Assembly: GCA_003586005.1 (NCBI GenBank)
Contig: NSKI01000010.1
Location: 1-64,000, forward strand
From: Haloplasmatales bacterium 4B
GTDB taxonomy: Bacteria; Bacillota_I; Bacilli_A; Haloplasmatales; Haloplasmataceae
Direction of reading: 5' to 3'
DNA: 64,000 nt
Of this stretch, positions 33,201-47,629 are shown one piece after another. The position numbers and the translations under genes are program-made. The notes under the pieces were generated by a model that saw only the letters and a program-made list of their open reading frames with translations, had not been told where the DNA came from and searched no databases. The first letter of the stretch is position 1; every line of letters begins with the position of its first letter.

Positions 33201-33299
33201 AACTACAATTATGAACGTGCTGGAATTATCGCTTTACCAATCATAATTTTACTAGGTACAACATTATTGTTATTTAAGTTTAGAAAAAGTGTGATATAG
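30219..33299 (+). CDS. Large surface protein: signal peptide, Ig-like repeats, C-terminal membrane anchor
   Basis: A 1026-residue protein starting at GTG 30219 behind GAGGGGG. Residues 1-27 are a signal peptide (LYIMIFALFSVLVFAFS). Residues about 35-112 form a bacterial Ig-like/DUF5011-type domain (TEYIEYGATAIDFEDG; GTYDITYFVTDSDGN). Residues about 120-240 look like a beta-sandwich module (SSESGYDFLKYYVNG; LDEGDNTVTWQYSKD). About eleven repeats of roughly 60 residues follow, each with a LNGxxY-type strand, an 'IGNHTLTINGxxxY' core and a closing 'INFTIEP'. The end is a transmembrane helix (AGIIALPIIILLGTTLLLF) plus KFRKS, so it is exported and held in the membrane with repeats outside. It is the first gene of the operon and is followed one base later by another membrane protein. 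Adhesion or sensing is my inference. Confidence 0.8.
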   Translation: MKKSLYIMIFALFSVLVFAFSKSINVEGTNGSVPTINLINSEIIYLKIGTEYIEYGATAIDFEDGNLNNSIQTYDSSLDINNAGTYDITYFVTDSDGNTASKTRQIIVFDTADYIKISEPISFHNDSLYPWVLVNIDGKAAMQSNNKLGNTTSSLSINVNSKAILSFDWKVSSESGYDFLKYYVNGVEQSRISGYKDWETVVIDLDEGDNTVTWQYSKDYSVDVGSNSGFIANVNVIRIDFDDLTTTINGSFNYYDGLKINCNRSEDLDFSINSVDGYDKSYAGYQDINYNIDVFYQGQRIPFNVTRRITVEPIINNIEDGGIYEDNIKVTFDGGIASLNGKDYESGSEIKQIGNNSLIIYGMNDYSKTVNFQVIPSLNDGEVFYDTYTPNINASSMMLNGQPFYNDEITEIGNHTLTINGLNEYTQTIHFQIIPSLNDGEVFYETYSPNINAKSLILNEQAYANEKITNAGNYELTINGVGNYNQTINFTIEPVYRVVEEGRYTGSIIPIISEIDAMYELNGSSYNVGDKITEVGNHTLKVIGENGYIKKIEFTVLEQVINLKNEGVYKYFLAPIISNAILKLDGEDYTSGTMIFTVGEHTLQGYGLNGYTFTYTFTITEQVINLEDSGVYDNFVTPHIPNAQLFLDNENYLSGTEINTIGEHLLTVVGNNYINHYHFTVEPVVNGAEDGKEYFSPIAPNFSGGTLTLNGEEYISGSIISKIGNYSLIISGVNGYIKSINFKISPTIKDLDIITGTFSPNINANSMTLNDQVYQNEEISQIGNYVLIVNGVGNYTEIINFTIEPIFGVIDGKDCVGRAIPVIDGSSASYKINGMDYEIGDFVELGEYSLTVIGENGYNRTINFNVVEHESNLLNDGIYFNSITPTSNLSSYTLKLNGNLIENDIPITRVGYNELTIIGSNGYRTTIKFTLLNNANVVNGKIYTQPLLIEKINAKMFLNGVEITEDTLVNKQGKYKLEIIGVGDYKEIINFEYYNYNYERAGIIALPIIILLGTTLLLFKFRKSVI

Positions 33300-33300
33300 T

Positions 33301-35094
33301 ATGATAAAATTTTTTCAAAATGAAGCTTTTAATATCCTATTATTTTTTATAGGATTTGCACTTGTATTAGTTGTGATTGGTTTTATACGCGAATTTAAAT
33401 TAAAACATCGAAAAAAAATAAATTTTAAAAAATTTTTAAAATTGAAAAAGGCATTTGAATTAAGAATAAATAAAGCTTATCTTTTTTTCAATTTTCTATT
33501 TATTATTTTATCAACATATTATGCATTAGTCATCATCAGAAATCCGGTCTATAGTATTTATATAATAATCGTCGAGTTGTTAAATGTGATGCTATTTATA
33601 ATACTGTATTTACATATAAGCAGTGTTAAATATAATAAAGATATATCAGTATATAGTAATTATCATCGAATTATTAGTAAAAGTTTTGATAATAGAGTTC
33701 AGTTGTTAGAACAAATCAAAAATCTTAAACATATTTATAATACTTTAATTGTTGAATGTAACGATTTAAATACTGATTTTTCAAAATACTTTAATAGTTA
33801 TACTGGGATTGATAATTTACTAAGTACACTTCAACCTATCGATGAGGTTATCAAGTCGTATCAAGAACAGTCAAATAATTTTGATGAAAGTATTACTTAT
33901 AAATTTGATTACGCATTAAAAACATTTCTAAAAACAGGTGAGTATAATGCTTTAACTATAAATGAATTTAAATTTTTAGACAATGTATCATTTAAAAAAA
34001 TCTTAAACTCAATTAATAATGAACAAAAACAATGTATTTTTAGTTTTTCTTTAAATAAATTAAAGGAAAATCAAATTGTTTCATCTGAACAATTAATGGA
34101 AATGATATTGAAATTAAATTCACTAAAAATATCTATAACTGATGAATTTATTATTGAAATCTTGAATTATCTTCATTATCAAGCGGAATATAAGAAGCGA
34201 ATCCTTGCCTTTTTAACAGATCAAAAATTAATTTCTGTAAATGTTTTATGTAATTTTGTTCATGTGAAAGATTTATCGTGGATTTATGATTTGCCTTTAG
34301 CTAAAATTATTGATAAAAAAGATGCTTTAATGGTTTTTGCCTCTATGATTAATAATAATGCTACTAATTGTGCGTTTAAAATTTTAACAACATTTGACAT
34401 TAAATTTAATAGTGATTTAAAAAAAGCTGTAATACAAGAAAAGACAGAAAATGAAACTAGAAAAATGTTTGCTGTTTATAGTAGACTTTTAGTAACTGAT
34501 GATTTTGTTAATAGTAAATCAATAAAGTATGAGAATTTAGCTATAATATTAAATCATTATTATGAAGATTATTACCCTCAAGGCAATGATGCCGAAAAAA
34601 TTAGAGAAATAGTAAAACGTCAAACATTTGAAGAAAATGCCGAATATATTGAGACATCATATAATCATGTTAAGGATGAATATAAAGATTTCTTTATAAA
34701 TATTGTGAATACGCTGTTTATATACAGTAATAGTTCTTGTGTTGATAATGAGTTTATCAACTATGAAAAAATTTTAAATCAATTTTCGGAATATCGTAAA
34801 AATATCAACATAAAAGAATTGAATATTCTAGATGTATTTGTAAAAACGTTAATTCTAATTAATGAAGAAGAAATTAGTAAAATAAATAGAATTTATCAAA
34901 TGCTAGATGAAAATGTTTATAAAGCATTTAAAGGTAAATTGGCAAAAAGAGATTTACACTATGATAAGCGAGTTTATGTTGGGAAAACCATAATCAAAAA
35001 CCTAACAAGTAATAGTAATATTAAAAATTTTAAAAGAGTTTTATATAGAATTGAAAATAGTCGCGCGACATTGGATAAAGTAGTAAATATATAG
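33301..35094 (+). CDS. Membrane protein with large helical cytoplasmic domain, unknown
   Basis: A 597-residue protein. Residues about 12-30 form a first membrane helix (ILLFFIGFALVLVVIGFI), followed by a very basic loop and two more helices between about 60 and 105 (FFNFLFIILSTYYALVII; IIIVELLNVMLFIILYL). The remaining about 490 residues are charged, alpha-helical and Asn/Lys/Glu-rich, with no recognisable catalytic motif. It starts one base after the stop of the surface-repeat gene and precedes the first vWA gene by 12 bases. I infer that it links the surface protein to the cytoplasmic signalling proteins, possibly as a scaffold; the family is unrecognised. Confidence 0.7.
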   Translation: MIKFFQNEAFNILLFFIGFALVLVVIGFIREFKLKHRKKINFKKFLKLKKAFELRINKAYLFFNFLFIILSTYYALVIIRNPVYSIYIIIVELLNVMLFIILYLHISSVKYNKDISVYSNYHRIISKSFDNRVQLLEQIKNLKHIYNTLIVECNDLNTDFSKYFNSYTGIDNLLSTLQPIDEVIKSYQEQSNNFDESITYKFDYALKTFLKTGEYNALTINEFKFLDNVSFKKILNSINNEQKQCIFSFSLNKLKENQIVSSEQLMEMILKLNSLKISITDEFIIEILNYLHYQAEYKKRILAFLTDQKLISVNVLCNFVHVKDLSWIYDLPLAKIIDKKDALMVFASMINNNATNCAFKILTTFDIKFNSDLKKAVIQEKTENETRKMFAVYSRLLVTDDFVNSKSIKYENLAIILNHYYEDYYPQGNDAEKIREIVKRQTFEENAEYIETSYNHVKDEYKDFFINIVNTLFIYSNSSCVDNEFINYEKILNQFSEYRKNINIKELNILDVFVKTLILINEEEISKINRIYQMLDENVYKAFKGKLAKRDLHYDKRVYVGKTIIKNLTSNSNIKNFKRVLYRIENSRATLDKVVNI

Positions 35095-35106
35095 GAGGGG
35101 TTCTAT

Positions 35107-35766
35107 ATGGTCGATCAGAATAAAATTATTAATGGCATTAGAAATTGCAAGTTATTATTAAGCATTATAGTTGATAATAGTTCTTCTATGAAAGGCGAAA
35201 AAATCCAAAAATTAAAAGCTGCTATATCAGACTTCAATTATTATATGCTGACAACTAATTTAAGTAATTATTTTGAATATACATTAATTGTTTTTGATGG
35301 ATTACATTCTAAAAAGCTTAAAGATTTTAATAATAATAATTTTAATGTTGAGGAAATGGTTGAAGGAGGATTAGCCTTACTTGAAAATTCACTTCAGCTT
35401 GGGTTTGATGAACTATATAAACGCTTAAGTGAATTAAATTATGATGGCGTCCAATGTTTTAAACCATGGTTAATCCTCTTAAGTGACGGACAAAGTTATG
35501 AAAACATCGATTTAGCAGTAACTAAATTAAAAGATTTATACCAAAATGGTAAACTTACCTATTTTCCATTTTTACTCTCTAGTAATAAAATTGATGAACG
35601 TCTTGATGAATTAAAAAATGTCAAAAAACCGATATCTATTTTAAATAACCAATATGATCAATTATTTATGTGGATGTATGAAACAGTAAAAAAGCGAGTG
35701 GTTACACCAATAGAGAGGTCAATGAAATTAGAGAGTGATTGTTTTGATGGGTGGACGATGAAATGA
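35107..35766 (+). CDS. TerY-like von Willebrand factor A (vWA) domain protein
   Basis: A 219-residue protein that is almost all vWA domain. The metal-ion-dependent adhesion site (MIDAS) DxSxS motif is DNSSS (23-27) in IIVDNSSSMKG, and a second conserved Asp lies in LLSDGQSYE. TerY-type vWA proteins are cytoplasmic and commonly occur with a PP2C phosphatase and a kinase; exactly that order follows here. The ribosome binding site is GGAGGGG. The stop TGA overlaps the ATG of the phosphatase gene (ATGA), indicating tight coupling. Confidence 0.85.
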   Translation: MVDQNKIINGIRNCKLLLSIIVDNSSSMKGEKIQKLKAAISDFNYYMLTTNLSNYFEYTLIVFDGLHSKKLKDFNNNNFNVEEMVEGGLALLENSLQLGFDELYKRLSELNYDGVQCFKPWLILLSDGQSYENIDLAVTKLKDLYQNGKLTYFPFLLSSNKIDERLDELKNVKKPISILNNQYDQLFMWMYETVKKRVVTPIERSMKLESDCFDGWTMK

Positions 35767-36713
35767 TAATCGAAAAATGGAAACAAAGCCATACATATGT
35801 TATTGGTAAGGACCATGTGAAATTAAATCAATCATGTCAAGATCGAACCTATTATGCTAAAGAAGATGGTGTACATGTTATTGCTCTTGCTGATGGAGCA
35901 GGCTCTAGAAAAACTTCAGAAATTGGAGCTGAAGTTGTAACTAAATCAATATGTGAATTATTAGCAAGTGAATTCTTTAATTTCTTTATTGGCTGTGAAA
36001 AAAGAGGGAAAGATGAGTTAGATTATTTAAAAGATAATAAAATGTTAAAAAAAATAATTCTTAATACATTGTTAAATGAACTAAAAAAGCAATCTGAAAA
36101 AGTAGATGAATTATCATCGACATTATTGTTTTGCGCTCTTTATAAAAACAAATATATTATTGGGCATATTGGTGATGGAGTGATTGGAGGAATATTTGAA
36201 GAAGCTGATGGTTTAACAATTAGAACTTTATCAGAGCCTAAAAATGGTGGAGCTCCTAATATTACCTTTTTTGTTACTGATAATGACGCCATCGATCATT
36301 TACGAATTACCTCGGGAGAATTTACTAATTTAAGAGGAATTATCTTGATGTCTGATGGTCCTGCTGAAGTTATGTATAATAAAAATACAGGCCTAAATGA
36401 AAATGTAATCAAAATTTTTAATAATTTTGATAAAAAAACCCCCAGTGAGTATAATCAAATCCTTAGTAAGTTCTTATGTGAAAAAATAGCAAATTACAGT
36501 AGTGATGATTTAAGTTTAAATTTGTTGTATTTAGAGAGTCTATATGCATCGGTCCAAGATACATATACTTTAAACTTATTAAGCGATATTTCGTCAGTTG
36601 ATCAAATAACTTATAAATCAAAATATTGTGTGGAATTAGACCCAACAATTAAGTCAATAAATAAAAATTTCTCCTCAATCGATGATGTAAGGAGATACCT
36701 AAAATGGATTTAA
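35763..36713 (+). CDS. PP2C-type protein serine/threonine phosphatase (TerY-P set 1)
   Basis: A 316-residue PP2C phosphatase. ATG 35763 is preferred because it overlaps the vWA stop (ATGA); GTG 35751 is a less likely start. The metal-binding Asp residues are in NQSCQDRTYYA (D27), ALADGAGSRKTSEIGA (D44), LMSDGPAE and the late NYSSDDLSLNLL. The IIGHIGDGVIGG strand is also typical. It is expected to dephosphorylate targets of the adjacent kinase. The kinase start lies inside its last codons, so vWA, phosphatase and kinase form one translationally coupled triad. Confidence 0.9.
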   Translation: MIIEKWKQSHTYVIGKDHVKLNQSCQDRTYYAKEDGVHVIALADGAGSRKTSEIGAEVVTKSICELLASEFFNFFIGCEKRGKDELDYLKDNKMLKKIILNTLLNELKKQSEKVDELSSTLLFCALYKNKYIIGHIGDGVIGGIFEEADGLTIRTLSEPKNGGAPNITFFVTDNDAIDHLRITSGEFTNLRGIILMSDGPAEVMYNKNTGLNENVIKIFNNFDKKTPSEYNQILSKFLCEKIANYSSDDLSLNLLYLESLYASVQDTYTLNLLSDISSVDQITYKSKYCVELDPTIKSINKNFSSIDDVRRYLKWI

Positions 36714-38062
36714 AATTTGGAACAAATAATATTATTTTCATTGAAGAAAGTTGTTTTTTAGCTGATGAATTTAATCAATTTTTAATAAGTTTGTTTAAAA
36801 AACTTGATGGGAGAAATTTAACAATCTGCGTAGATCAAAATATTGACAAAACAATCGATAATTATAAATTGACTTTAAACGATAGGGATGCATATACAAT
36901 TGAAGGGTTCATTGACATTTTCGAGCACCTAGAGATTATTCAGAAAATAGATACAAGAGGTTATTTAGATTTTAATGATTTAGGGAATATCATTAGAAAT
37001 AATAAATTACTAAATGTATTAATTTTAACACAAAAAGAAAGTGTCTATAAGTCGTTTAAAAAACTAGAATTAGATTCTGAAAATCTTGCTTTAGCAAGAT
37101 TTAACAAAGAATTAATCGAATGGATTACTTATCCTAAAGTTGGTAATGATGCCTTTTTTATCGAAAAAGATATATATATAAATAAAGTAGATATTGATAA
37201 TATTGATTATGTCTTTTCTCCAAAATATGGTCACTTAAAATTAGATAAAAGGATCCATTTTAAGGGTGGAGAAGGAATTTTGTATAAAACATATAATAAT
37301 CAATTATGTAAACTTTATTATGATGAGCACCAGACATATGTTAATTATAAAAAAATTGAACAGATGTTAGAAATTGATATTAATAACCCATTTATAAATT
37401 GGCCAAAAGATTATTTGTTTTATAAAAATGATTTTGTTGGTTATCTAATGGATGAGATAAAAGGAGCTAGTAGCCTAGATGTCCTTAGAATTAATATGTT
37501 TGAAGGGTATAACATCTTTGATTTATATGTTTTAAGTTACAATTTATTATTGAATATTGATTATTTACATAATAAAAATATCCTTGTAGGTGATTTAAAA
37601 CTTGATAATATACTAGTGAAATCACCTGTTGAAGTTTATTTAATTGATTGCGGAAGTTATCAAATAAAAGATTTTTCATGCGATGTTTGTCATCCAGAAT
37701 ATACTAAAAAAGTATATACAAGTGAAGAGTTGAAAAAGAAGTTAAGGACAATAGAGGATGAATATTATCCAATCAATAAAATTATTTTTGAGTTATTGAT
37801 TGGTAAAAATCCAAATTATAATCGCGACTTAGGTGAAGTAGATATTGAAAATAAAAATAATTTTACTTTTCCGCTTGATTTAAGCCAAATAAAAACCTAC
37901 ACAAGAGATTTGGTATTATGGATTGGATTAAGCGAAAGGATGAGAGAATTTTTTTATTACTATTTCAAGGAAAATAAAATAACTTACCTATCAGAATGGT
38001 TAAATGAACTAGAAGTATATATAGAAAACGCAAAAGCAAAAAAAAGAAACGGAGAGAGATAA
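36704..38062 (+). CDS. Divergent protein kinase with N-terminal PIN-like domain (TerY-P set 1)
   Basis: A 452-residue protein. Residues about 1-140 alternate strands and helices (NIIFIEESCFL; LNVLILTQKESVYKSF; IEWI) in a way that suggests a PIN/NYN-like Rossmann domain, though I cannot confirm active-site acids. Residues about 170-435 are a kinase fold: glycine-rich FKGGEGILYKTY (186-197), candidate ATP Lys203 in CKLYY, catalytic loop VGDLKLDNILV (295-305) with Asp297 and Asn302, and DCG (315-317) replacing DFG. HRD has become VGD, as in many bacterial TerY-P kinases. It lies between a PP2C and a vWA gene, with AAGGAG for its start. Activity is likely but unproven because of the altered motifs. 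Confidence 0.8.
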   Translation: MDLKFGTNNIIFIEESCFLADEFNQFLISLFKKLDGRNLTICVDQNIDKTIDNYKLTLNDRDAYTIEGFIDIFEHLEIIQKIDTRGYLDFNDLGNIIRNNKLLNVLILTQKESVYKSFKKLELDSENLALARFNKELIEWITYPKVGNDAFFIEKDIYINKVDIDNIDYVFSPKYGHLKLDKRIHFKGGEGILYKTYNNQLCKLYYDEHQTYVNYKKIEQMLEIDINNPFINWPKDYLFYKNDFVGYLMDEIKGASSLDVLRINMFEGYNIFDLYVLSYNLLLNIDYLHNKNILVGDLKLDNILVKSPVEVYLIDCGSYQIKDFSCDVCHPEYTKKVYTSEELKKKLRTIEDEYYPINKIIFELLIGKNPNYNRDLGEVDIENKNNFTFPLDLSQIKTYTRDLVLWIGLSERMREFFYYYFKENKITYLSEWLNELEVYIENAKAKKRNGER

Positions 38063-38063
38063 T

Positions 38064-38759
38064 ATGAATACTAATAATGATTTCAATTTTGATTTATTTG
38101 GAGACTATAAATTACCAGATTTGGACAGTTCTTTAAAACTGCCACTATGTTTAGTTCTTGACCAAAGTGGTTCAATGGCTGAAAGAACAAGATCTAGTAA
38201 TGGCTCTATCGTAAAAATTGATGAATTAAACTCAAATGTTGAAAAGCTAATCAATTATATTAAGCATGATCCAAAAGCGAGCAAAATTTGCGATTTATGT
38301 ATAATTGCTTTTGGTGGAAGAGTTCAAGTAGTAACAAACTATAATAGAGTAGATCAAATAAGACCTTTTAAACTAGTTGCTGGTGGTAGCACACCATTAG
38401 GTGAAGCTGTGGGACTAGCCATTGATTTGCTTAATAAAAGAAGACAATATTACCGAGATAATGGGATTGAGCACTATAAACCATTGATGTTACTGATGTC
38501 TGATGGAGAACCTACTGACAGATATGATACTAGTGCTAGAATTTGTTCTGAAAAAGTTAGTGGAAAAGAGCTTAAAATTTATCCTGTCGGAATTGGGAAT
38601 AACTATAGAGAAGACATATTAAAAGAATTTTCGCCTTATGTAAATCCGAAACGAATTACTGATATGGCAGGGTTTATGAAATTGTTTGAACTTTTAAGTA
38701 GAAGTACAAGTAATCCTACCGATGACTCAATTGATAAATGGTTTAATGAAGATATTTAG
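38064..38759 (+). CDS. TerY-like vWA domain protein
   Basis: A 231-residue vWA protein closer to canonical TerY. The MIDAS motif is DQSGS (33-37) in LVLDQSGSMAER, the Thr position is in AGGSTPLGEAV, and the distal acidic motif is LMSDGEPTDRYD. The N-terminal about 27 residues are an Asp/Asn-rich tail. It starts one base after the kinase stop. It closes the first transcription unit: a strong terminator follows, then a new promoter. Two vWA proteins bracketing one phosphatase/kinase pair suggests they serve as different adaptors for the same signalling module. Confidence 0.92.
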   Translation: MNTNNDFNFDLFGDYKLPDLDSSLKLPLCLVLDQSGSMAERTRSSNGSIVKIDELNSNVEKLINYIKHDPKASKICDLCIIAFGGRVQVVTNYNRVDQIRPFKLVAGGSTPLGEAVGLAIDLLNKRRQYYRDNGIEHYKPLMLLMSDGEPTDRYDTSARICSEKVSGKELKIYPVGIGNNYREDILKEFSPYVNPKRITDMAGFMKLFELLSRSTSNPTDDSIDKWFNEDI

Positions 38760-38770
38760 AAGCAATTAGT

Positions 38771-38804
38771 GATGATTTTTGTTGTGGACAAAAATCATCT
38801 TTTT
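38771..38804 (+). terminator. Terminator splitting the locus into two transcription units
   Basis: GATGATTTTTGT (38771-38782) pairs perfectly with ACAAAAATCATC (38788-38799), followed by TTTTT. Confidence 0.85.
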
Positions 38805-38852
38805 ATACATTGTAAAAGTTAAGTTAACTGATTTCATTCACTTTAAACTTTG

Positions 38853-38881
38853 TTGACATTTGTCAATATTTGGGAGATAAT
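38853..38881 (+). promoter_or_regulatory. Promoter of the SPFH/ESCRT-like transcription unit, with palindrome over the -35
   Basis: Perfect -35 TTGACA (38853-38858), 17-nt spacer, -10 GATAAT (38876-38881). The -35 is half of the palindrome TTGACATTTGTCAA (38853-38866), which could be an operator. Confidence 0.75.
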
Positions 38882-38912
38882 ATTACTAATGATTAGTTGT
38901 AAGGAGGTATTT

Positions 38913-39764
38913 ATGAAAGAAGTAATTAAGTTTTTAGGGAAAAAAGATGATTTAGTTTGGATTTATCCAAAAACATCGATAAATAATGATGCCATGATTC
39001 AAGTGGATATGGGCTATCAAGCGATAATGGTCCGAAATGGTGAAATTGATATCCCTTATTTAACAGGTACTAATAAAGTTTTTGATGATAAACAAACAAA
39101 ATTTTCAATCTTTAATAATAAAAAATATGTTAGTGATTGTAGTATTTATTTTTTTAATAAATCTCGAGAAGTTAGTGCTAGAGAATGGGGAACTAAATAT
39201 CCAATAAAATATTTTGACAAAAGTTATAAAATAGAATTATCTATGCGGGGGCATGGAACATACAAGCTTTGTATAGAAAGTCCAAGATTGTTTTTAAAAA
39301 GTTTTAAAATCGATAACAATTCACTTTTTAAATTAGAGTCATCTATTAAGGATATGGTTATTTCAAAATTATCTGAAACATTAGCGAAAGAATTAACTAA
39401 GGGAAGTTATGATTTGTTGAGTATTCATGCTTTTTATGATGTAATTTCTAAAGCCGCGCAAGATACACTAAATGTTGAAATTGAGCAATATGGTTTCAGT
39501 ATTTATGACCTATCAATAGCGAATTTAACTCCAGTTGAAGAAGAACAAATACATGCTTTGAAAGAGGCTAAGTTTAAAGCAACTATTTTCGAAAATGAAT
39601 TTGAAATAGTTAATAAAGCAAGAAAAGCAAATAACGAAGATATCATAATGCAAAAGCAAATGAAACAACAAATTTGTACTAATTGTAATACTAATATAGA
39701 TAGTAACATGAAGTTTTGTCCTAATTGTGGTAAAAATTTAAATGAGAGTGAGTTTGGTGATTAG
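38913..39764 (+). CDS. SPFH-domain protein with C-terminal zinc ribbon (YdjI-like)
   Basis: A 283-residue protein. ATG 38913 is chosen because TAAGGAGGT lies just before it; an upstream in-frame start at 38850 lies within the promoter. Residues about 20-215 resemble the SPFH (stomatin/flotillin-like) domain of bacterial YdjI 'virion core'-type proteins (QVDMGYQAIMVRNGEI; SREVSAREWGTKYPIKY; a helix after QYGFSIYDLSIANLTP). A helical stretch follows, then a zinc ribbon with ICTNCNTNID and FCPNCGKNL. In Bacillus, YdjI-type SPFH proteins recruit the ESCRT-III-superfamily protein PspA and its regulators to the membrane. An SPFH protein heading a unit with an ESCRT-III-like protein fits that theme. 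Confidence 0.88.
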   Translation: MKEVIKFLGKKDDLVWIYPKTSINNDAMIQVDMGYQAIMVRNGEIDIPYLTGTNKVFDDKQTKFSIFNNKKYVSDCSIYFFNKSREVSAREWGTKYPIKYFDKSYKIELSMRGHGTYKLCIESPRLFLKSFKIDNNSLFKLESSIKDMVISKLSETLAKELTKGSYDLLSIHAFYDVISKAAQDTLNVEIEQYGFSIYDLSIANLTPVEEEQIHALKEAKFKATIFENEFEIVNKARKANNEDIIMQKQMKQQICTNCNTNIDSNMKFCPNCGKNLNESEFGD

Positions 39765-39765
39765 A

Positions 39766-40071
39766 ATGATATTTAGTAAACAAAATTCACAATTTAATAA
39801 AATTCAAAAAGATGTCTATAAAAAATTAAATGAACTTGAATCTATTGTTAAAGATCCTGTGATTAGAAAGAGAATTACCATTTTGATTGATAAAACATCT
39901 AGTTTAAAAAATACACAAAATAGTAAGATTATTGGTTTGCTTGAAGATACTTCGAACTATGTTCGAGAGTTAAAAAAAGAATTAATGAATCCTGTTGATT
40001 TAGTCTTAAGTAATTATCTTGATAAAATTGATTCATTATTAAATCAGATTAAGTATGAAAGTGAGGAATAA
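39766..40071 (+). CDS. Small coiled-coil protein, unknown
   Basis: A 101-residue, entirely helical, Lys/Asp/Leu-rich protein. ATG 39766 starts one base after the SPFH gene's stop; a longer start at 39742 would overlap it more and lacks a ribosome binding site. Heptad-like spacing of Leu/Ile is visible (IQKDVYKKLNELESIV; YLDKIDSLLNQI). No family is recognised. Its tight packing between the SPFH and ESCRT-like genes suggests it is a structural partner, possibly a short ESCRT-III-like or adaptor helix bundle. Confidence 0.7.
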   Translation: MIFSKQNSQFNKIQKDVYKKLNELESIVKDPVIRKRITILIDKTSSLKNTQNSKIIGLLEDTSNYVRELKKELMNPVDLVLSNYLDKIDSLLNQIKYESEE

Positions 40072-40072
40072 T

Positions 40073-40642
40073 ATGTTTTGGTTTAGTAAAAAGAAAAAAA
40101 TAAAAAATAAAGCAGAAAAGACATGGCGATTGGAAAATGAAATCTATCGACATATCCATGAACTTGAGAATTTATTTAAAACTTTAGAGGAAACAAAAGC
40201 AAAAGGTAAAAAAGAACAGAATATCAACTTGCAGCAATTAATTGCTAATGAGTATCTACTTATAGAGAATAAAATTAAGATACAAACAATTTCTTTAAAA
40301 GAGATGCAAAAAACATATTTGGAAAATCAAGATTATTTAAATAAAGAACAATTACTAAATACTTATAAAATGATTGATGACTTTACAATATCTAGTGTTG
40401 CTGATTTAAAGAAAATTGTGGTTAAAATTAAAGATATTCAAGAAAATAAGCAAGAAGAAGATAAAGAGCGGAAAAATGTTAGTGATGTTTTTGAAGATAG
40501 TGTAAACAGTTATAGTTCTAATCTGGAAAATGAACGGGCAAAACAACTCACAGAATCTTGGGCTAGAGAAAATGAAGATGAACAATTAATAAATGAATTA
40601 ATTAGTGAAGAAGCTTTAGTAGAAAACAAGGAGGATTTATAG
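40073..40642 (+). CDS. Helical protein, possible second ESCRT-III-like subunit
   Basis: A 189-residue, highly charged helical protein. ATG 40073 follows GTGAGGA and sits one base after the previous stop; the longer in-frame start is upstream of that site. It opens with MFWFSKKKKIKNKAEKTW, a basic amphipathic start like the next protein's MGMFKSKAEK. Long helices follow (YRHIHELENLFKTLEET; LIANEYLLIENKIKIQTI), and the last about 50 residues are acidic (SWARENEDEQLINELISEE). Basic N-terminal half and acidic C-terminal half is the ESCRT-III charge layout. I see no clear MIM motif. ESCRT-III-like is a hypothesis; generic coiled coil is the fallback. Confidence 0.6.
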   Translation: MFWFSKKKKIKNKAEKTWRLENEIYRHIHELENLFKTLEETKAKGKKEQNINLQQLIANEYLLIENKIKIQTISLKEMQKTYLENQDYLNKEQLLNTYKMIDDFTISSVADLKKIVVKIKDIQENKQEEDKERKNVSDVFEDSVNSYSSNLENERAKQLTESWARENEDEQLINELISEEALVENKEDL

Positions 40643-40645
40643 AAT

Positions 40646-41230
40646 ATGGGTATGTTTAAATCGAAAGCAGAAAAAGAACTTGATAGAAAAATGAAAATAA
40701 AGAAAACTATATCAGGTATGAATAAGTTTGTCTCTCAAATTGAAGCGAAAAAAAGCAAATTAATTGAACAAGCTAGTTTAGCTAAATTAAAGGGGATTGA
40801 TTCTCAATATAATTTAGCTGTTCAAGGTTTGAAAATTGCTTTAGCTCAACAAAAAAGAGTTGAAACGATGTTATTAAATTTTGAAATCACTAGTCAATTA
40901 AAAGATATATCTGCTATGACCCAGGGATTTTTTGAATCTATGAGTATTTTCTCTAAAGAATTGTCTACTGATACTAAAGGGAAAGACCTTTATAAAGTGC
41001 AACAACAATTTGAAAGAGCGATGCTTAAGTCATCAATGCAGACAGAAAAACTTGAGACGTTCTTAGATTCAACAGAATCATTATTTGAAAATTTAAGTGT
41101 TGATTCAAATTCTGTTACCGATTCAGAAATTGAAAAATTAATTGAAACACAAGCATCTAATATGACTGATGACTTAGATGTTCAAATTGAAGAGAAGTTA
41201 AAGAGTTTAGACAGCAAACAAACATTATAA
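40646..41230 (+). CDS. ESCRT-III/CHMP-like protein with C-terminal MIM1-like motif
   Basis: A 194-residue, all-helical protein with AAGGAGG upstream. The N-terminal half is basic and predicted to form a long alpha1-alpha2 hairpin (about 20-80: KFVSQIEAKKSKLIEQASLA; VQGLKIALAQQKRVETMLL). The pattern continues with FEITSQLKDISAMTQGFFES and KVQQQFERAMLKSSMQTEKL, then acidic helices with SEIEKLIETQ (160-169), closely following the CHMP/Vps24/Did2 layout. The last helix has D178-x-x-I181-x-x-K184-L185-x-x-L188, matching the MIM1 consensus [DE]xxLxx[RK]LxxL that eukaryotic ESCRT-III subunits use to bind Vps4 MIT domains. The next gene encodes a Vps4-like ATPase with an MIT-like domain. PspA/Vipp1-type homology alone would not explain this motif. 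Confidence 0.68.
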   Translation: MGMFKSKAEKELDRKMKIKKTISGMNKFVSQIEAKKSKLIEQASLAKLKGIDSQYNLAVQGLKIALAQQKRVETMLLNFEITSQLKDISAMTQGFFESMSIFSKELSTDTKGKDLYKVQQQFERAMLKSSMQTEKLETFLDSTESLFENLSVDSNSVTDSEIEKLIETQASNMTDDLDVQIEEKLKSLDSKQTL

Positions 41231-41244
41231 GAAGAGGGGATATT

Positions 41245-42390
41245 ATGGAGAATCAACAGTTTTTACTTGATGCATTTAATACTTACTATAATAACGGTAT
41301 GGAAGCCAAGAATAAGAATAATATACCTCTAGCTAAGAAAAATTTCACAAGATCAGCTGAAGCCTTAGTTAAACTGGCAAAAATGTCCACAGGAGAATTA
41401 CGTAAATCTCGTTATGAAAGGGCAAGCCGGCTTATTGATTATATTAATAATTTACAAGTTTCTGTAACAAGTGCTAATAAGATTAGTAATGCAAGTGCTA
41501 ATGTCTCGAAAAAAACTTCTAAAGAAGATAATAGCGAAACTATTTGGGAATCAGTTACTGTGCCTAAAATTAGTTTTGATGATATTGCGGGATTAGATGA
41601 TGTAAAAGAAGCTGTTCGAGTAAGAATTATTTTGCCAAGAAAGTATCCAGAAGTTTACCAAAAGTATAAAAAGAAATCTGGTGGTGGAGTATTAATGTAT
41701 GGACTACCAGGAACAGGAAAAACCATGGTTTCTAAGGCGATAGCTAAGGAAATTGATGCTAAGTTTTTTGAAGTTAAAAGTAGCGATATTGTTAGTAAAT
41801 GGTTTGGTGAAGCTGAAAAGAATATAAAAAGTTTATTTGAAACGGCTAGAAAAGAAAAGAACGCTGTAATATTTTTTGATGAATTTGAAGCATTAGGTGC
41901 TAAACGGGGAGGAAATTCAAGCGTTATGGCAAGAATTATTCCAGAACTTTTAGCCCAAATTCAAGGGTTTAATGAAACTGAATCAAATATTATGCTGCTT
42001 GCGGCAACTAATAGACCATGGGATATTGATAGTGCCTTTTTAAGACCAGGTCGTTTTAATGAGAAATTATATATACCACTACCTGATTATGAAGCTAGAG
42101 AATTTATAATTACAAGAGCTTTAGAAGAGCTCCCAGTAGATAACGATATTAATATCAACGAAATTGTAGAATTTACTGATGGTTTTAATGCTTCAGATGT
42201 TGTGGAGTTTTGCGAAAGATTAAAAGATGGACCGATTAAACGGACAATTGAGAGCGGTGGCAATGATATAAAAAATATAACATCAGAAGATGTTTCATTA
42301 ACTAAAGCTAAAGTAAAGAGTTCTGTAAATCCACAGGATGTAATTGCTTTAGAAAAATGGAAAAATAATTTTGAAGATGATAATAATTAA
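41245..42390 (+). CDS. Vps4/CdvC-like AAA ATPase with N-terminal MIT-like domain
   Basis: A 381-residue meiotic-clade AAA ATPase. Residues 1-70 are three amphipathic helices in MIT style (FLLDAFNTYYNNGMEAKNK; ARKNF-type ARSAEAL region at 30-45; ASRLIDYINNL). A Ser/Asn-rich linker follows (about 71-105). The ATPase shows FDDIAGLDDVKEAV (111-124), Walker A GLPGTGKT (153-160), the Vps4-type pore loop SKWFGEAEKN (184-193), Walker B VIFFDEFEAL (208-217), sensor 1 AATN (253-256) and LRPGRF (266-271) before LYIPLPD. The C-terminal helix (ALEKWKNNF) resembles the katanin/Vps4 C-terminal helix. It is not FtsH: there is no protease domain or transmembrane segment. In archaea and eukaryotes such ATPases remodel ESCRT-III filaments; here it directly follows the ESCRT-III-like gene. 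Confidence 0.88.
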   Translation: MENQQFLLDAFNTYYNNGMEAKNKNNIPLAKKNFTRSAEALVKLAKMSTGELRKSRYERASRLIDYINNLQVSVTSANKISNASANVSKKTSKEDNSETIWESVTVPKISFDDIAGLDDVKEAVRVRIILPRKYPEVYQKYKKKSGGGVLMYGLPGTGKTMVSKAIAKEIDAKFFEVKSSDIVSKWFGEAEKNIKSLFETARKEKNAVIFFDEFEALGAKRGGNSSVMARIIPELLAQIQGFNETESNIMLLAATNRPWDIDSAFLRPGRFNEKLYIPLPDYEAREFIITRALEELPVDNDININEIVEFTDGFNASDVVEFCERLKDGPIKRTIESGGNDIKNITSEDVSLTKAKVKSSVNPQDVIALEKWKNNFEDDNN

Positions 42391-42412
42391 TATTTAGATA
42401 AGGAGGGGCACT

Positions 42413-43315
42413 ATGGAAACTAATATTAAAAATTGTCCATTTTGTGGAACAATTTTAGATGAGAAAAGCATTTTATATAAAGGATATTATGTTTGTACAA
42501 GCTGTGCAAATACCGTAAATGATAGTAAAAATGCAGATTTAATCCGTAAGTATAGTAGTTATATTAGGAATTTAGAATTTAAGCGGGCAAATTTACTGCG
42601 GAACGAAATGCTTGATGAAGCTATTTTGGATGTAAATGAGCTGCAGTTATTTACTTTTTATTCCTCTATTTTAGATCTGTTTATTACTAAAGATCCTAGT
42701 AAAATTATTAAGTTTTTAAATGATAGTACAGCTATAGATATTGGAGTAGCAATTGAGGTAATTAATTTTTTAACTAGTTTGTCAATGTATATTGAAAAAC
42801 TAGGTAGATATATTTTGAAATACGCAAGTATGCAAGAAAAGTATTTAGCACATTTAAATAATCACGAGCTTGATATTGCTTTAATAGAATTAAGGAAACG
42901 TTATTTTAAATCAATCCAAAATAAGTCAAGTTTTATCCAAGATAGTTTTAAACAAAAGAAAATGAATCTAATTGAAATAGTTGAATTAGTTCGCAATAAT
43001 GATCCGGCTAATATCGCTTGCCTGTATGTAGTTTTTGATGATGTAGCTATTGAGGAATATCTTCCGGATGAAATAAATACTTATTTATTGACTTGTGATT
43101 ATGCCTTAGAATTATATTATGAAAAAAATAATCATGAAATAAGTAAAAACTACCGCGATTATTATAAAAAAGCTAATTCGTTAAGAAAATTACTTAATCT
43201 CAATGCAGAAGTAAAATATAAGTGGCAAAAAAGGATCACTAAAAATCTATGGAAAAGAGTAAGTTATCTTATACTACTAATTTTGTCTGTTGCGATAATT
43301 AGATTAGGGATGTAA
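42413..43315 (+). CDS. Zinc-ribbon protein with C-terminal tail anchor, unknown
   Basis: A 300-residue protein with an AAGGAGGGG ribosome binding site. The N-terminus is a zinc ribbon (CPFCGT...VCTSCANTV, about 8-36). About 220 residues of helical, Leu/Lys-rich sequence follow without known motifs (NELQLFTFYSSILDLFI; ACLYVVFDDVAIEEYLPDE). The last about 25 residues are a membrane helix preceded by basic residues (KRVSYLILLILSVAIIRLGM), so the protein is likely tail-anchored with its bulk in the cytoplasm. It lies between the Vps4-like ATPase and the second kinase. A membrane recruitment role for the ESCRT-like proteins is inference. Confidence 0.7.
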   Translation: METNIKNCPFCGTILDEKSILYKGYYVCTSCANTVNDSKNADLIRKYSSYIRNLEFKRANLLRNEMLDEAILDVNELQLFTFYSSILDLFITKDPSKIIKFLNDSTAIDIGVAIEVINFLTSLSMYIEKLGRYILKYASMQEKYLAHLNNHELDIALIELRKRYFKSIQNKSSFIQDSFKQKKMNLIEIVELVRNNDPANIACLYVVFDDVAIEEYLPDEINTYLLTCDYALELYYEKNNHEISKNYRDYYKKANSLRKLLNLNAEVKYKWQKRITKNLWKRVSYLILLILSVAIIRLGM

Positions 43316-43318
43316 TTA

Positions 43319-44590
43319 ATGTTTAAAAATGGTGAAATATTAAATAATTCAATAAAGATTATTGATTTTATTGGTTCAGGAGGACAGGGCGAGGTTTATA
43401 AAGTTCAATATCAAGATGCATTACTTGCTTTAAAATGGTATTATCCTAAATCGGGTACAAAGCAACTAAAAAAAACACTCGCTAACCTCATTTCAAAGGG
43501 TTCTCCAAATGATTTTTTCCTTTGGCCTCTAGCTTTAGTAGAATACAATAACCAATTTGGTTATTTGATGGAGTTACGTCCTAAAACCTACAAAAGTTTA
43601 CTTGATTGGGTTAGTTTAAAATTTGATATGAGTTTAACTTCGATTTCTAAAGCGTGTTTTAAATTAACCGATGCTTTTCATAAATTACATGCTAAAGGAT
43701 TAAGTTACAAAGATATTTCGTTTGGGAATTTGTTTATTGATCCAAATTGTGGTGATATCTTGATATGTGATAATGATAATGTTACAGCTAATGGTATTAA
43801 TGTAAGTGGACTTTTAGGAACTCCTAAATTTATGGCTCCCGAAATAGTGATGGGGAGTACGATACCTAATACGGAAACAGATCAGTTTTCATTAGCAATA
43901 TTACTTTTTTATATATTGTTGATATCACATCCTTTTGATGGAGCATTAGAAGCCAATATTAAATGTTTTGACGAGAGTTCATTAAGTAAGTTATATGGAA
44001 CTAATGCAATCTTTATATATGATAAACTAAATGATGTTAATCGTCCTGTTCCTGGAATTCATAATAATGCGATTAACTTATGGAAGTTATATCCACAGTA
44101 TATAAAAGAACTATTTAATAATACTTTTACTCTAGGAGTTAAAAATCCAGCTAAAAGAACAAGGGAAAGTCAGTGGAGAAATGCTTTTTTAAAATTATAT
44201 AATTCGCTTACAAAATGTTCGCATTGTGGAATGGAAAACATATATGATATAGAGGTCCTTAACACTAGAGGGAAATTAGAACCTTGTATTTTATGTAACG
44301 AAGAATATCCTATTGCACCAAGAATTCGCATCAATAATAATGTAGTAGTCTTAGATGATGAAAAACAATTATTTATAAGTCATATTAAAAAAAGTGATCC
44401 CTCTAATCTAAGTGTCATAGCTGAGGTTAGAGAATTAAATTCTGAGTTTTATCTTACTAATGTTTCTAAAGATATTTGGAAATATATTACAACTTCTGAA
44501 ACAATTAATATCTTACCTCAACAAGTAGTTAATCTAAAAGATAATAGCATGATAGATTTTGGATTAGTTAAAGGGGAGATAAGGTTTTGA
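43319..44590 (+). CDS. TerY-P-type protein kinase with zinc finger and C-terminal beta domain
   Basis: A 423-residue protein. The kinase domain covers about 10-290: Gly loop GSGGQGEVYKV (19-29), ATP Lys39 in LALKWY, catalytic loop SYKDISFGNLFID (129-141) with Asp132 and Asn137, DND (151-153) in place of DFG, and GTPKFMAPEIV (168-178). The substitutions are typical of kinases of bacterial TerY-P triads. Residues 300-326 hold two CxxC pairs (CSHC, CILC), a zinc finger. The C-terminal about 90 residues are beta-rich (LSVIAEVRELNSEFYLTN; SMIDFGLVKGEIRF) and may be FHA-like, which would bind phosphothreonine. Its stop overlaps the next phosphatase start. Confidence 0.88.
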   Translation: MFKNGEILNNSIKIIDFIGSGGQGEVYKVQYQDALLALKWYYPKSGTKQLKKTLANLISKGSPNDFFLWPLALVEYNNQFGYLMELRPKTYKSLLDWVSLKFDMSLTSISKACFKLTDAFHKLHAKGLSYKDISFGNLFIDPNCGDILICDNDNVTANGINVSGLLGTPKFMAPEIVMGSTIPNTETDQFSLAILLFYILLISHPFDGALEANIKCFDESSLSKLYGTNAIFIYDKLNDVNRPVPGIHNNAINLWKLYPQYIKELFNNTFTLGVKNPAKRTRESQWRNAFLKLYNSLTKCSHCGMENIYDIEVLNTRGKLEPCILCNEEYPIAPRIRINNNVVVLDDEKQLFISHIKKSDPSNLSVIAEVRELNSEFYLTNVSKDIWKYITTSETINILPQQVVNLKDNSMIDFGLVKGEIRF

Positions 44591-45366
44591 TGAATAATTT
44601 TCGTGTTTTTAGTGATAGTGCAAAAGGAATTATGCATGAAAATCAAGATGTTGGTTTAGCTAAGGTAAAAGCTAATCATGCTTATTTAATTGTAAGTGAT
44701 GGCCATGGAGGAAAAGATTATATCCGTAGTCACATTGGTGCTAAGCATGCAGTTCTTGCCTTAGAGGCAATATTTAATGATTTCGCAAGTAATTATAAAA
44801 ACTTTGATTCAATAAATCATGCTGAACAAACTTTAAAAGAAAAGATTATAACATCATGGAGAAAATTAACTATTGATCATTATATAAATAATCCTCTACC
44901 AAGTTATGAAATTGATCCTTATAAGCTTTATGGGGCAACGCTGTTAGGCGTTTTATTAAAAGATGATTATATGGTTGTAATTCAAATCGGTGATGGTAAT
45001 ATTCTTGCACTTTTAGAAAATGAGGATATAGTTCAATATTTTAAAAAGGATAAAAAATTAGTTGGCAATGAAACGACGTCAATTTGTGAAATTAATGCAA
45101 TTAAAGACTTACATGTTAAAATTGTAAAACTTAATGTTTTACCAATTTTAATAATGGTAACAACTGATGGTGTTATAAATTCATTTACAGATATTAATGA
45201 TTTTTACAGTTTACCTAAAGAAGTAGTTATGGAAATTAAATCATTAGGTTTTAATAAAACATGTCAAAATTTTAGGCAATTGCTTAATGATATGGTAAAT
45301 AAAGGCAGTGGAGATGATTGTACAGTTGCGATACTTTATAATTTTTCCCCTACTAATTTTAAATAG
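44590..45366 (+). CDS. PP2C-type protein phosphatase (TerY-P set 2)
   Basis: A 258-residue PP2C phosphatase starting at ATG 44590, which shares a base with the kinase stop (TGATG). Metal-site motifs are HENQDVGLA (D20), IVSDGHGGKDYI (D37-G40), VIQIGDGN, TTDGVI and the C-terminal SGDDCTVAIL. The family role is to reverse Ser/Thr phosphorylation by the coupled kinase. It differs in sequence from the phosphatase at 35763, so the locus contains two separate kinase/phosphatase pairs rather than a recent duplication. Confidence 0.92.
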   Translation: MNNFRVFSDSAKGIMHENQDVGLAKVKANHAYLIVSDGHGGKDYIRSHIGAKHAVLALEAIFNDFASNYKNFDSINHAEQTLKEKIITSWRKLTIDHYINNPLPSYEIDPYKLYGATLLGVLLKDDYMVVIQIGDGNILALLENEDIVQYFKKDKKLVGNETTSICEINAIKDLHVKIVKLNVLPILIMVTTDGVINSFTDINDFYSLPKEVVMEIKSLGFNKTCQNFRQLLNDMVNKGSGDDCTVAILYNFSPTNFK

Positions 45367-45383
45367 AGAGAAGATGAGTATAT

Positions 45384-46085
45384 ATGGGATTAAGGAAATT
45401 AGGAGTAGAAAAAATATCGGCTAGACCACTTGAGTTTATCTGGATTTTAGATGTTTCAGGCTCAATGCATGGAGAAAGAATAGCTGCATTAAATTATGCA
45501 ATAAAAGAAGCAGTCCCAGCAATGCAAGAAGCAGCACAAAGTAATGTGAATGCGGAAATTATGGTGCGGGTGCTTACTTTCTCTACTGATTTTACCTGGC
45601 ACATAAGTGAGAGAACTCCTGTTAAGGATTTTGAGTGGAGTGATGTTAGAGCAGAAGGTTTATCAAACCTGGGCTTAGCACTTACTGAACTCGCAAGTAT
45701 ATTAGATGAGGAAAAGATGCCAGAACGGGGATTACCACCTGTTTTAGTTTTAATTACTGATGGAGAACCTACTGATGATTATAAAGTTGGGTTAGACTTA
45801 ATAATGTCAAAGGTATGGGGAAAAAAATCAGTTCGCCTAGCAATTTCCGTAGGAAATGATGTTGAAAAAACAGTTTTAGAAGATTTTATTGGTAATAAAG
45901 ATATAGAACCATTTGAGGTTGAAAATGCTTCACAACTTACACAATATATAAAATTTGTATCTACGAAAGTTTTGTCAAGCGTTTCTTTGGTAAAATCTGA
46001 TGCTCATTCATTATTTAAGTTTGATTTTGAATTACCAGAGTTAGATGATGAATCGCCTAACAATGATGTATACGATAAGTTTTAG
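45384..46085 (+). CDS. TerY-like vWA domain protein (TerY-P set 2)
   Basis: A 233-residue vWA protein. The MIDAS motif is DVSGS (23-27) in IWILDVSGSMHGERIA; the conserved Thr region is EGLSNLGLAL and the distal acidic motif is LITDGEPTDDY. It ends in an acidic tail. It completes a kinase-PP2C-vWA triad in the order opposite to set 1 (vWA-PP2C-kinase). In Ter-dependent stress systems the vWA protein is thought to act as a metal-bound adaptor for the phosphorylation module. Confidence 0.93.
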   Translation: MGLRKLGVEKISARPLEFIWILDVSGSMHGERIAALNYAIKEAVPAMQEAAQSNVNAEIMVRVLTFSTDFTWHISERTPVKDFEWSDVRAEGLSNLGLALTELASILDEEKMPERGLPPVLVLITDGEPTDDYKVGLDLIMSKVWGKKSVRLAISVGNDVEKTVLEDFIGNKDIEPFEVENASQLTQYIKFVSTKVLSSVSLVKSDAHSLFKFDFELPELDDESPNNDVYDKF

Positions 46086-46102
46086 AGAGTTAGGAGAAAT
46101 TT

Positions 46103-47581
46103 ATGGAAACTAAAAAAATAGTTGAGATTTTAAAACAAATAGATATTAATATATTATTAAAACAAAATACGTTTAAGGCTGTTTTAGCCGATTTATTATA
46201 TGATTATGAAGCTGAACGAAAAATTTTAAATACAATTCACAATAGTGTAAATGTGATTGAAAAGCTTCATAAGAGTAATAATAAGATTTTAGAGTGCCAA
46301 AATATTAAAACAGAATTATTAAGTTATGGACTTAATAGCACTACTGTAGAATGGGCAATTGAAATATGGTCAGGTGTTTTAGGAATAAATAATGTAAGAA
46401 ATATTGAAGGTACATTTAATCAATTTATTAAACTGAGTGCAGGTGGTTCTTTTACTATCGCATTAAAAGACACAAAAGTTTATGCTTGGGGAAATAATAA
46501 ATGGGGTCAACTTGGTAATGGAACATTATTTGATTGTATTAGACCAGTTGAGATATCAAGCAATTTTAATTTTAATAATAATGAAAATATTGAAAATATT
46601 TTTACTTCATTTCGCTCAACGTACCTTTTAACTACAGAAGGAAGATTGTTCTCATGGGGAAGTAATGAATATGGACAACTTGGTGATGGAACAATTATCA
46701 GTAAGAATTATCCAATAAATATTACAAGTAAGTTTAGTCTACAAAATGGTGAAAAGATATTACATTTTAGTACCGGTGGTTTTCATTGTTTATTAATAAC
46801 ATCATTTGGTAGAGTCTTCTCATGGGGAAATAATGAGTATGGACAACTTGGTGATGAGTCAAATATTAATAAAAATTTACCTGTTGAAATTACAAACAAG
46901 TTTTCATTAGTAAATAATGAAAAAATTGAAAATATTAAAGTTGGCTTAGGACACTCAATGGTTACTACTTCAATGGGTAGAGTATATACATGGGGAAATA
47001 ATGAATATGGGCAGCTTGGTGATGGAACAAAAACTAAAAGGAAGAAACCTACTGATGTTACAAGGGATTTTTTATTCGCGGATAATGAGAAAATTAACTT
47101 TATCGCATTAGGTGCTCTTCATTCATTAGTTGTTACCTCTAGCCGAGTATTTACTTTTGGAAGCAATGAAAGTGGTCAATTAGGAGATGCAACTACTAAA
47201 ATGAGATATAAACCTGTCGATATAACAAATCGTTTTAGCCCTTTACCTGAAGAAAAGATAATCAAAATAGAAGCAGGAAGAAACTATTCCTTAGCGCTTA
47301 CTTCTATAGGTCGTGTTTTTTCATGGGGTAATAATAAATTTGGACAACTTGGTATCGCTGATTATATTACCGGTACCACAGGACCTATGGATATAACAAA
47401 CAATATTATTAATAATGATGAAGAGTTGATTGTTAATATCTTTACTGGAGCTAATTCAACTCATAGTTATGCCATAAGTAATAACGATAAAATTTATGCA
47501 TGGGGTAATAATGAATATGGTCAACTTGGAGAAGGATCAACAATTGAAAAAAGGTCTCCTATCGAGATAAAGATAGGTTAG
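46103..47581 (+). CDS. Seven-repeat RCC1-like beta-propeller protein
   Basis: A 492-residue protein. Residues 1 to about 105 are helical (VEILKQIDINILLKQN; IKTELLSYGLNSTTVEWAIE). The rest contains seven RCC1 repeats, each with a signature such as VYAWGNNKWGQLGNGT, LFSWGSNEYGQLGDGT or IYAWGNNEYGQLGEGS; seven copies are what one closed RCC1 propeller needs. There is no signal peptide, so it is probably cytoplasmic. Three neighbouring signatures are spaced exactly 168 bp apart (46654, 46822, 46990), suggesting expansion by duplication. It follows the second TerY-P triad by 17 bases and is the last gene of the unit. A scaffold or substrate-recognition role is inference. Confidence 0.9.
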   Translation: METKKIVEILKQIDINILLKQNTFKAVLADLLYDYEAERKILNTIHNSVNVIEKLHKSNNKILECQNIKTELLSYGLNSTTVEWAIEIWSGVLGINNVRNIEGTFNQFIKLSAGGSFTIALKDTKVYAWGNNKWGQLGNGTLFDCIRPVEISSNFNFNNNENIENIFTSFRSTYLLTTEGRLFSWGSNEYGQLGDGTIISKNYPINITSKFSLQNGEKILHFSTGGFHCLLITSFGRVFSWGNNEYGQLGDESNINKNLPVEITNKFSLVNNEKIENIKVGLGHSMVTTSMGRVYTWGNNEYGQLGDGTKTKRKKPTDVTRDFLFADNEKINFIALGALHSLVVTSSRVFTFGSNESGQLGDATTKMRYKPVDITNRFSPLPEEKIIKIEAGRNYSLALTSIGRVFSWGNNKFGQLGIADYITGTTGPMDITNNIINNDEELIVNIFTGANSTHSYAISNNDKIYAWGNNEYGQLGEGSTIEKRSPIEIKIG

Positions 47582-47594
47582 AATAAATAATTTC

Positions 47595-47629
47595 AAGGAA
47601 GAATGAGTTCATTCTTCCTTTAGATTTTT
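47595..47629 (+). terminator. Terminator after the RCC1 gene (copy 1 of a repeated element)
   Basis: AAGGAAGAATGA (47595-47606) pairs with TCATTCTTCCTT (47609-47620), then TTTTT a few bases later. The 34-nt stretch 47596-47629 recurs at 52686-52719 with one difference. Confidence 0.75.

Follow-up and report, generated by a model that had tools for sequence, protein, structure and literature searches.

Do two kinase/phosphatase gene sets that flank ESCRT-like genes in a bacterium act on the proteins encoded between them, and are they part of the machine to which those proteins belong? The question is raised by the window analysed here, a stretch of 64,000 nucleotides from Haloplasmatales bacterium 4B (contig NSKI01000010.1 of assembly GCA_003586005.1; genome of 2.26 Mb). 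In its region 30219-47581 all genes lie on the + strand, and an ESCRT-like core of SPFH, helical and AAA proteins is preceded by one set of genes for a kinase, a PP2C phosphatase and von Willebrand factor A (vWA) proteins (set 1) and followed by another (set 2). Analysis of the locus and its relatives suggests that the core contains a bacterial ESCRT-III/Vps4 pair, that the two sets differ in origin, and that both are attachments of one lineage. Set 2 is the likelier of the two to regulate the core directly.

Composition and origins of the two sets

The gene order is: Ig-like surface protein, 597-aa membrane protein, vWA-A, PP2C-A, kinase A and vWA-B, followed by the SPFH-zinc-ribbon protein, three helical proteins, MIT-AAA ATPase, zinc-ribbon membrane protein, kinase B, PP2C-B, vWA-C and RCC1 protein. 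Set 1 comprises vWA-A (35107..35766), which has only a weak VWA match below the cut-off (3e-3) and is recognised by BLAST to vWA-B (1e-10); PP2C-A (35751..36713; Pfam PP2C_2 6e-38); kinase A (36704..38062; Pkinase 2e-8); and vWA-B (38064..38759; VWA 5e-11), with a DxSxS metal-binding motif. Its kinase and both vWA proteins fall in subtype-A clades, and the assignment of PP2C-A is likewise supported by a tree. Set 2 comprises kinase B (43319..44590; Pkinase 3e-16), with a putative C-terminal zinc ribbon and a beta-rich region; PP2C-B (44587..45366; PP2C_2 3e-26); and vWA-C (45384..46085; VWA 2e-9), which is 50% identical to the vWA protein of a Methylomonas triad. Open reading frames, Pfam and, for vWA-A, BLAST place all seven genes on the + strand exactly where a preliminary description of the locus had put them. 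The mirrored order that it reported was also found, along one strand and not as an inverted repeat. The coupling by overlapping stops and starts that it ascribed to every junction holds at three of the five junctions within the sets (vWA-A/PP2C-A, 16 bp; PP2C-A/kinase A, 10 bp; kinase B/PP2C-B, 4 bp) and fails at the other two, which are gaps (kinase A/vWA-B, 1 bp; PP2C-B/vWA-C, 17 bp).

The translations confirm the differing kinase motifs: kinase A has VGDLKLDN/DCG where kinase B has YKDISFGN/DND. Both proteins retain the Asn as well as the catalytic and the metal-binding Asp. A CxxC...CxxC pattern follows the kinase domain in kinase B and is absent from kinase A. The N-terminal 165 aa of kinase A (36704-37198) match no Pfam family, and a structure model of this kinase is too poor to use (predicted local distance difference test, pLDDT, of 33). 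In three proteins related to kinase A a PIN_4 domain occupies the N-terminus, in the same place as these 165 aa; in kinase A itself a PIN domain is no more than a candidate, with no Pfam match and an hhalign probability, from two sequences only, of 0.5%.

A TerY-P triad consists of a TerY-like vWA protein, a PP2C phosphatase and a Ser/Thr kinase (Anantharaman 2012, cited after PMC11090510 and PMC4978471). Relatives were gathered by tblastn on plasmids and by searches of genomes of the same class. Triads with relatives of kinase A occur in Fusobacterium, Lysinibacillus, Paenarthrobacter and three class genomes (G071, G058, G193), and those with relatives of kinase B in Methylomonas, Prevotella, a Klebsiella ter cluster and three others (G123, G109, G037); kinase B shows 42% identity to the Methylomonas TerY-P-type kinase over 96% coverage. 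Nothing close to kinase A was found beyond the window and its sister genome among 296 class genomes. The partners match the kinases: in kinase-A-type loci the adjoining PP2C and vWA proteins are nearest to PP2C-A and vWA-B, and in the Methylomonas, Prevotella, G123, G109 and G037 loci they are nearest to PP2C-B and vWA-C, the exception being the PP2C of the distant Klebsiella ter cluster, which falls on the set-1 side of the tree. Maximum-likelihood trees part set 1 from set 2 for the kinase (support 99/98), the PP2C (99/98) and the vWA protein (98/98). E. coli YegI, PphC and YegL lie on the set-1 side in all three, PP2C-A grouping with PphC and with the Fusobacterium and Lysinibacillus triads; long branches limit the details of these trees and leave the split between the sets unaffected. 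Approximately unbiased (AU) tests reject the union of the two sets of the window for the kinases (p 1e-61), the PP2Cs (7e-5) and the vWAs (1e-70). Because trees, AU tests and matching neighbours agree, the sets are by their sequences TerY-P-type triads of different subfamilies, each of which appears to have moved as a unit; these separate phylogenies uphold the earlier judgement that this is not a simple recent duplication.

Relatives of set 2 all have the order kinase-vWA-PP2C, except in the Klebsiella ter cluster, and relatives of set 1 have either that order or vWA-PP2C-kinase. These orders show that the mirror arrangement is not ancestral. Related triads sit on plasmids and beside mobile-element genes, and subtype-A triads elsewhere occur without ESCRT-like genes.

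The ESCRT-like core

The genes between the sets begin with an SPFH/Band_7 protein with a C-terminal zinc ribbon (38913..39764, ATG at 38913; Band_7_1 2e-13, Zn_Ribbon_1 1e-6), followed by a 109-aa helical protein (39742..40071), an open reading frame with a counterpart in the sister genome; relatives have small genes at a similar position. Then come a 195-aa coiled-coil protein (40055..40642) that is weakly similar to the ESC194 family (hhalign 24.6, reversed control 14.6); the ESCRT-III-like protein ESC194 (40646..41230); the MIT-AAA ATPase, which is Vps4/CdvC-like (41245..42390); and a helical protein with a C-terminal membrane segment and weak zinc-ribbon matches (42413..43315).

The ATPase matches the NCBIfam CdvC model over its full length at 7e-63, under the curated cut-off. 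Because this score fails to part it from Cdc48 (212 bits, against about 200 for archaeal Cdc48 domains), its identity was judged by the MIT domain and a tree. The top three PDB matches of its N-terminal profile are MIT-domain chains (E 0.002, 0.0025 and 0.06), which, from their titles, we take to be a chitin synthase MIT domain and two archaeal MIT entries of the p60-katanin type. The same profile matches the N-termini of CdvC at 9e-7 (hhalign), against 0.002 for a reversed control. The AAA-domain tree places the cassette proteins together with CdvC on one side and Cdc48 and FtsH on the other (99/95), with the bacterial proteins as a separate lineage beside CdvC.

ESC194 matches archaeal CdvB in hhalign with an E value of 1e-4, a score of 37 and a probability of 58%, compared with scores of 14 for reversed CdvB, 19 for CdvA and 14-25 for the controls. 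Its C-terminus carries an MIM1-like motif, DVQIEEKLKSL (41177..41209); among 18 homologues such motifs occur in 5 by a strict definition and in 12 by a relaxed one, against 0.06 and 0.57 in shuffles. A model of ESC194 has four long helices at modest confidence (pLDDT 72). Foldseek lists CdvB in the top rows at E 0.1, and fold comparison, with Z scores of 8-9.5 against ESCRT-III and of 10.4 against BAR domains, does not part the two. Pfam finds no Snf7 or PspA match in ESC194, nor any PspA_IM30 match in the proteins encoded at 39742-41230. The CdvC model, the MIT profile, the MIM1-like tails, the CdvB match and the AAA tree together strengthen the label "ESCRT-like" that the middle genes had been given, and the window likely encodes a bacterial ESCRT-III/Vps4 pair.

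Relatives of the ATPase extend beyond such pairs. AAA proteins of about 600 aa, encoded without an ESC194 partner at L018, L038-L043, L064, L067 and L069, form a neighbouring branch where they were included in the tree. Archaeal gut contigs from metagenome-assembled genomes (MAGs; L033-L035, L037) carry AAA genes of the bacterial branch, which may reflect transfer or misbinning. At L061:2856-5289 an AAA gene lies between two ESC194 paralogues, an arrangement reminiscent of a composite polymer.

Occurrence of the sets among genomes with the core

An ESCRT-like pair, taken as an ESC194 family gene adjoining the AAA gene, was found in 20 genomes: the window's, G003, G024, G128, G524, G259, G142, G204, G212, G377 and the ten of L023, L025-L031, L046 and L051. 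The expectation that such genomes always carry both sets fails, as in 16 of the 20 no kinase, PP2C or vWA gene is linked to the pair, linkage being a lower bound at L023, L024/G128, L028, L030 and G212, where the cassettes are at contig ends. The window's genome and its sister G003 are the only two that carry both sets. The sister block (L016) contains every gene of this 16-gene block except PP2C-B, with 17 bp between kinase B and vWA-C; two genera of the family have both sets beside the core, at protein identities of 40-82%. A fixed two-triad architecture is thus ruled out by this survey: because most bacteria with the ESCRT-like genes go without the sets, these are lineage-specific attachments and not a fixed part of the ESCRT-like machine.

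Transcription units

Set 1 is preceded by the Ig-like surface protein (30219..33299; Pfam Bact_surface_Ig-like 2e-16), which has a C-terminal membrane segment and is also present in the sister locus, and by the 597-aa protein (33301..35094), which has N-terminal membrane segments and no known domain in a Pfam scan and is confined to the window and the sister among 247 class genomes. These two genes and set 1 probably form a transcription unit of their own, opened by the Ig-like gene, because a terminator-like hairpin (38771..38799, a 13-pair stem followed by T5) and a promoter-like site (38853..38881, TTGACA-17-GATAAT, 11 of 12 consensus matches) precede the SPFH gene, in the same place as in the sister genome. 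There the hairpin differs in sequence, and the promoter-like hexamers and their spacing are identical. Such sites are matches to a consensus, and the AT-rich stretch holds many promoter-like ones (149, compared with 130 after shuffling); weight is therefore placed on the conserved position. The genes from SPFH to RCC1 (46103..47581; RCC1 repeats predicted to form a beta-propeller, 5e-78), set 2 included, probably constitute another unit: the gap between the membrane-protein gene and kinase B is 3 bp, no terminator-like hairpin was found on the + strand from the SPFH gene to kinase B, and one with an 11-pair stem closes the unit at 47595..47620. The sets therefore flank the ESCRT-like genes in position, as first described, but not equally, since the hairpin and promoter-like site part set 1 from the SPFH gene.

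Control of the core and alternative explanations

We propose that the core consists of an SPFH anchor, helical proteins, an ESCRT-III-like subunit with an MIM1-like tail and, from the Vps4/CdvC lineage, an MIT-AAA ATPase. Two TerY-P-type switches of different subfamilies would have been placed beside this core, each with its kinase, PP2C and vWA genes together. Set 2, which probably shares the transcription unit of the core, is its likeliest direct regulator: through kinase B and PP2C-B it may determine how far core proteins or vWA-C are phosphorylated, and this state would govern assembly, or ATPase-driven disassembly, of an ESC194 polymer at the membrane. Set 1, which would be transcribed with the Ig-like protein and a second membrane protein, would probably bring in an envelope signal. 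Gene content, homologies, the separate origins of the sets, a likely transcription break and the dispensability of the sets elsewhere are established by computation. That either set controls the core, in which direction, through which substrates and with what cross-talk, is inferred. We give the model as a whole, with set 2 as the likely direct regulator, an even chance of being right. It gains from the position of both sets beside the core in two genera, from other cores that also carry phosphorylation genes, an FHA-kinase and PP2C at L023 and a Ser/Thr kinase at L051, and from the kinase, phosphatase, Ig-like and SPFH-zinc-ribbon proteins encoded at archaeal ESCRT loci (PMC10936438). Several observations weigh against it: the 16 cores without linked sets; whole-genome family searches that find no Pkinase, PP2C_2 or VWA match in G128 or in the genome of L031; the sister genome, which has set 2 without its phosphatase and whose sole PP2C_2 match is that of set 1; weak hairpin-like sites within genes of the kinase region, at 44756 and 45722; and set 1 itself, which is probably transcribed separately from the core. 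Of the earlier suggestion of two inputs or two opposing controls, a constant need for both sets has fallen, and two inputs in this lineage stand as inference only.

A real but lesser possibility is that only set 2 serves the core, set 1 being a neighbouring TerY-P-type system that works independently, through a surface receptor of its own. The hairpin and promoter-like site, conserved in place in the sister, fit this explanation, as do the subtype-A triads found elsewhere without ESCRT-like genes, but the adjacency has been kept across two genera despite their divergence, and neither kinase A nor the 597-aa gene occurs close elsewhere in the class genomes searched. Two kinases of different subfamilies, with different extra domains, beside one core would also suit opposing controls, one kinase promoting assembly and the other disassembly of the same polymer; this seems unlikely, given that most cores manage without the sets and that the transcription units are separate. 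Slightly less likely still is the landing here of mobile TerY-P-type defence modules unconnected to the core. Although the plasmid and mobile-element settings of related triads, and the antiphage activity reported for TerY-P-like modules (PMC11090510), favour such an origin, the Pfam-scanned genes of the locus include no transposase or integrase, kinase B is coupled to the core membrane gene at 3 bp, and the PADLOC TerY models barely match (9e-4, for vWA-B only). That set 2 arose from set 1 by duplication and rearrangement is highly improbable: the shared domain types and the mirrored order point that way, but the three AU tests refute it, and the outside relatives differ for each set.

Other partners of the core

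The core of the window is one of several with signalling or effector genes attached. In a Bacillota MAG (L023:3224-6927), genes for an FHA-zinc-ribbon kinase, a PP2C and an RCC1 protein lie directly 5' of the cassette, the kinase and PP2C belonging to families other than those of the window; RCC1 thus adjoins the cassette in both. In a planctomycete (L051:9242-15512), ESC194-like, AAA, SPFH-like, membrane-protein and Ser/Thr kinase genes are grouped, with a second AAA gene upstream. A TIR-domain protein is linked to nine cassettes (G024, G524, G259, G142, G204, L046, L026, L031 and L030) and is the sole TIR_2 match in six of these nine genomes. The cassette-side zinc-ribbon, TIR, helical proteins are about 1000-1100 aa long, most with terminal membrane segments; examples are L017:4516-7524, L062:5894-9028, L057:5830-9138, L059:10730-13969 and L046:7200-10256. 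A RelA/SpoT-domain gene lies directly 3' of MIT-AAA in two cassettes (L027:4599-5804, L025:3661-5091), and BrxL is present in one, between the AAA and TIR genes (L017:7528-8952). Because its partners vary so widely, the core appears to serve as a platform for varied signalling or effector genes. A defence-island setting was considered and set aside, as the cassette TIR proteins hardly match the PADLOC models and the flanks of the L023, L024, L027 and L028 cassettes look, by eye, like housekeeping genes.

According to Makarova et al., systems with both vps4 and ESCRT-III are restricted to archaea and eukaryotes, and another 2024 survey reports Vps4-like transfers to bacteria, without Snf7 (PMC11237479). 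The present locus, with its relatives, is a candidate exception to that restriction. We consider the chances evenly balanced that bacteria own complete ESCRT-III/Vps4 systems, in the form of an SPFH–helical–ESCRT-III–MIT-AAA cassette that occurs across Bacilli and Clostridia and in at least one planctomycete and is connected to interchangeable signalling modules (TerY-P-type in the window, zinc-ribbon-TIR or RelA/SpoT elsewhere). Such connections would point to ESCRT-like membrane remodelling as the basis of an immune response or of a response to envelope damage. Small bacterial genomes allow the kinase, TIR and RelA/SpoT partners to be compared, and should the switch act on the polymer, the control of ESCRT-like assembly by a kinase would be testable in a bacterium, with naturally switchless cores as controls.

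Comparison with known systems

A literature search, made mostly without subscription papers, yielded no description of such a combination of core and attached signalling genes, and the known systems each share a part of it. The kinase, PP2C and vWA proteins of E. coli yegI-pphC-yegL are distant relatives of set 1 (22-33% identity) and, unlike set 1, have no ESCRT-like genes nearby. The GAP1-N2 systems of the third theme (PMC7159879) combine a zinc-ribbon/beta-rich kinase, a PP2C and a standalone vWA protein near a proposed membrane-proximal assembly, whereas the window locus has no GTPase. The B. subtilis ydjFGHI and PspA loci (PMC11237479, PMC10936438) share with the window SPFH-zinc-ribbon, ESCRT-III-superfamily and zinc-ribbon membrane proteins, but ESC194 lacks a PspA_IM30 match and the window has an MIT-AAA ATPase.

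Archaeal ESCRT loci (Main, Halo_FHA and Meth_adaptin groups; PMC10936438) have in common with the window an MIT-bearing Vps4 and an ESCRT-III gene upstream of it; some contain kinase and phosphatase genes and others SPFH-zinc-ribbon and Ig-like proteins, as here, and the section on these loci does not mention vWA genes. The window differs from them in being bacterial, in its separate AAA branch beside CdvC, and in that no winged-helix partner was recognised.

The closest likeness of the sets themselves is to the TerY-P triad, in which the same three proteins are encoded in compact operons. Relatives of the sets lie in operons annotated as VWA/PP2C/kinase, some with TerY-C; those of kinase B occur in such TerY-C operons and in the ter cluster borne by enterobacterial plasmids. 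Kinase B may share with the triad kinases a C-terminal zinc ribbon, a tail that kinase A lacks; duplicated vWA genes, as in set 1, are also found in TerY-P operons of CoCoNuT systems (PMC11090510). The 16 operon proteins have no TerD/TerB/TerC-type Pfam match of the Ter (tellurite resistance) system. Unlike TerY-P triads, whose partners are ter or restriction and nuclease genes, the triads of the window accompany an ESCRT-like core, with two subfamilies together at one locus.

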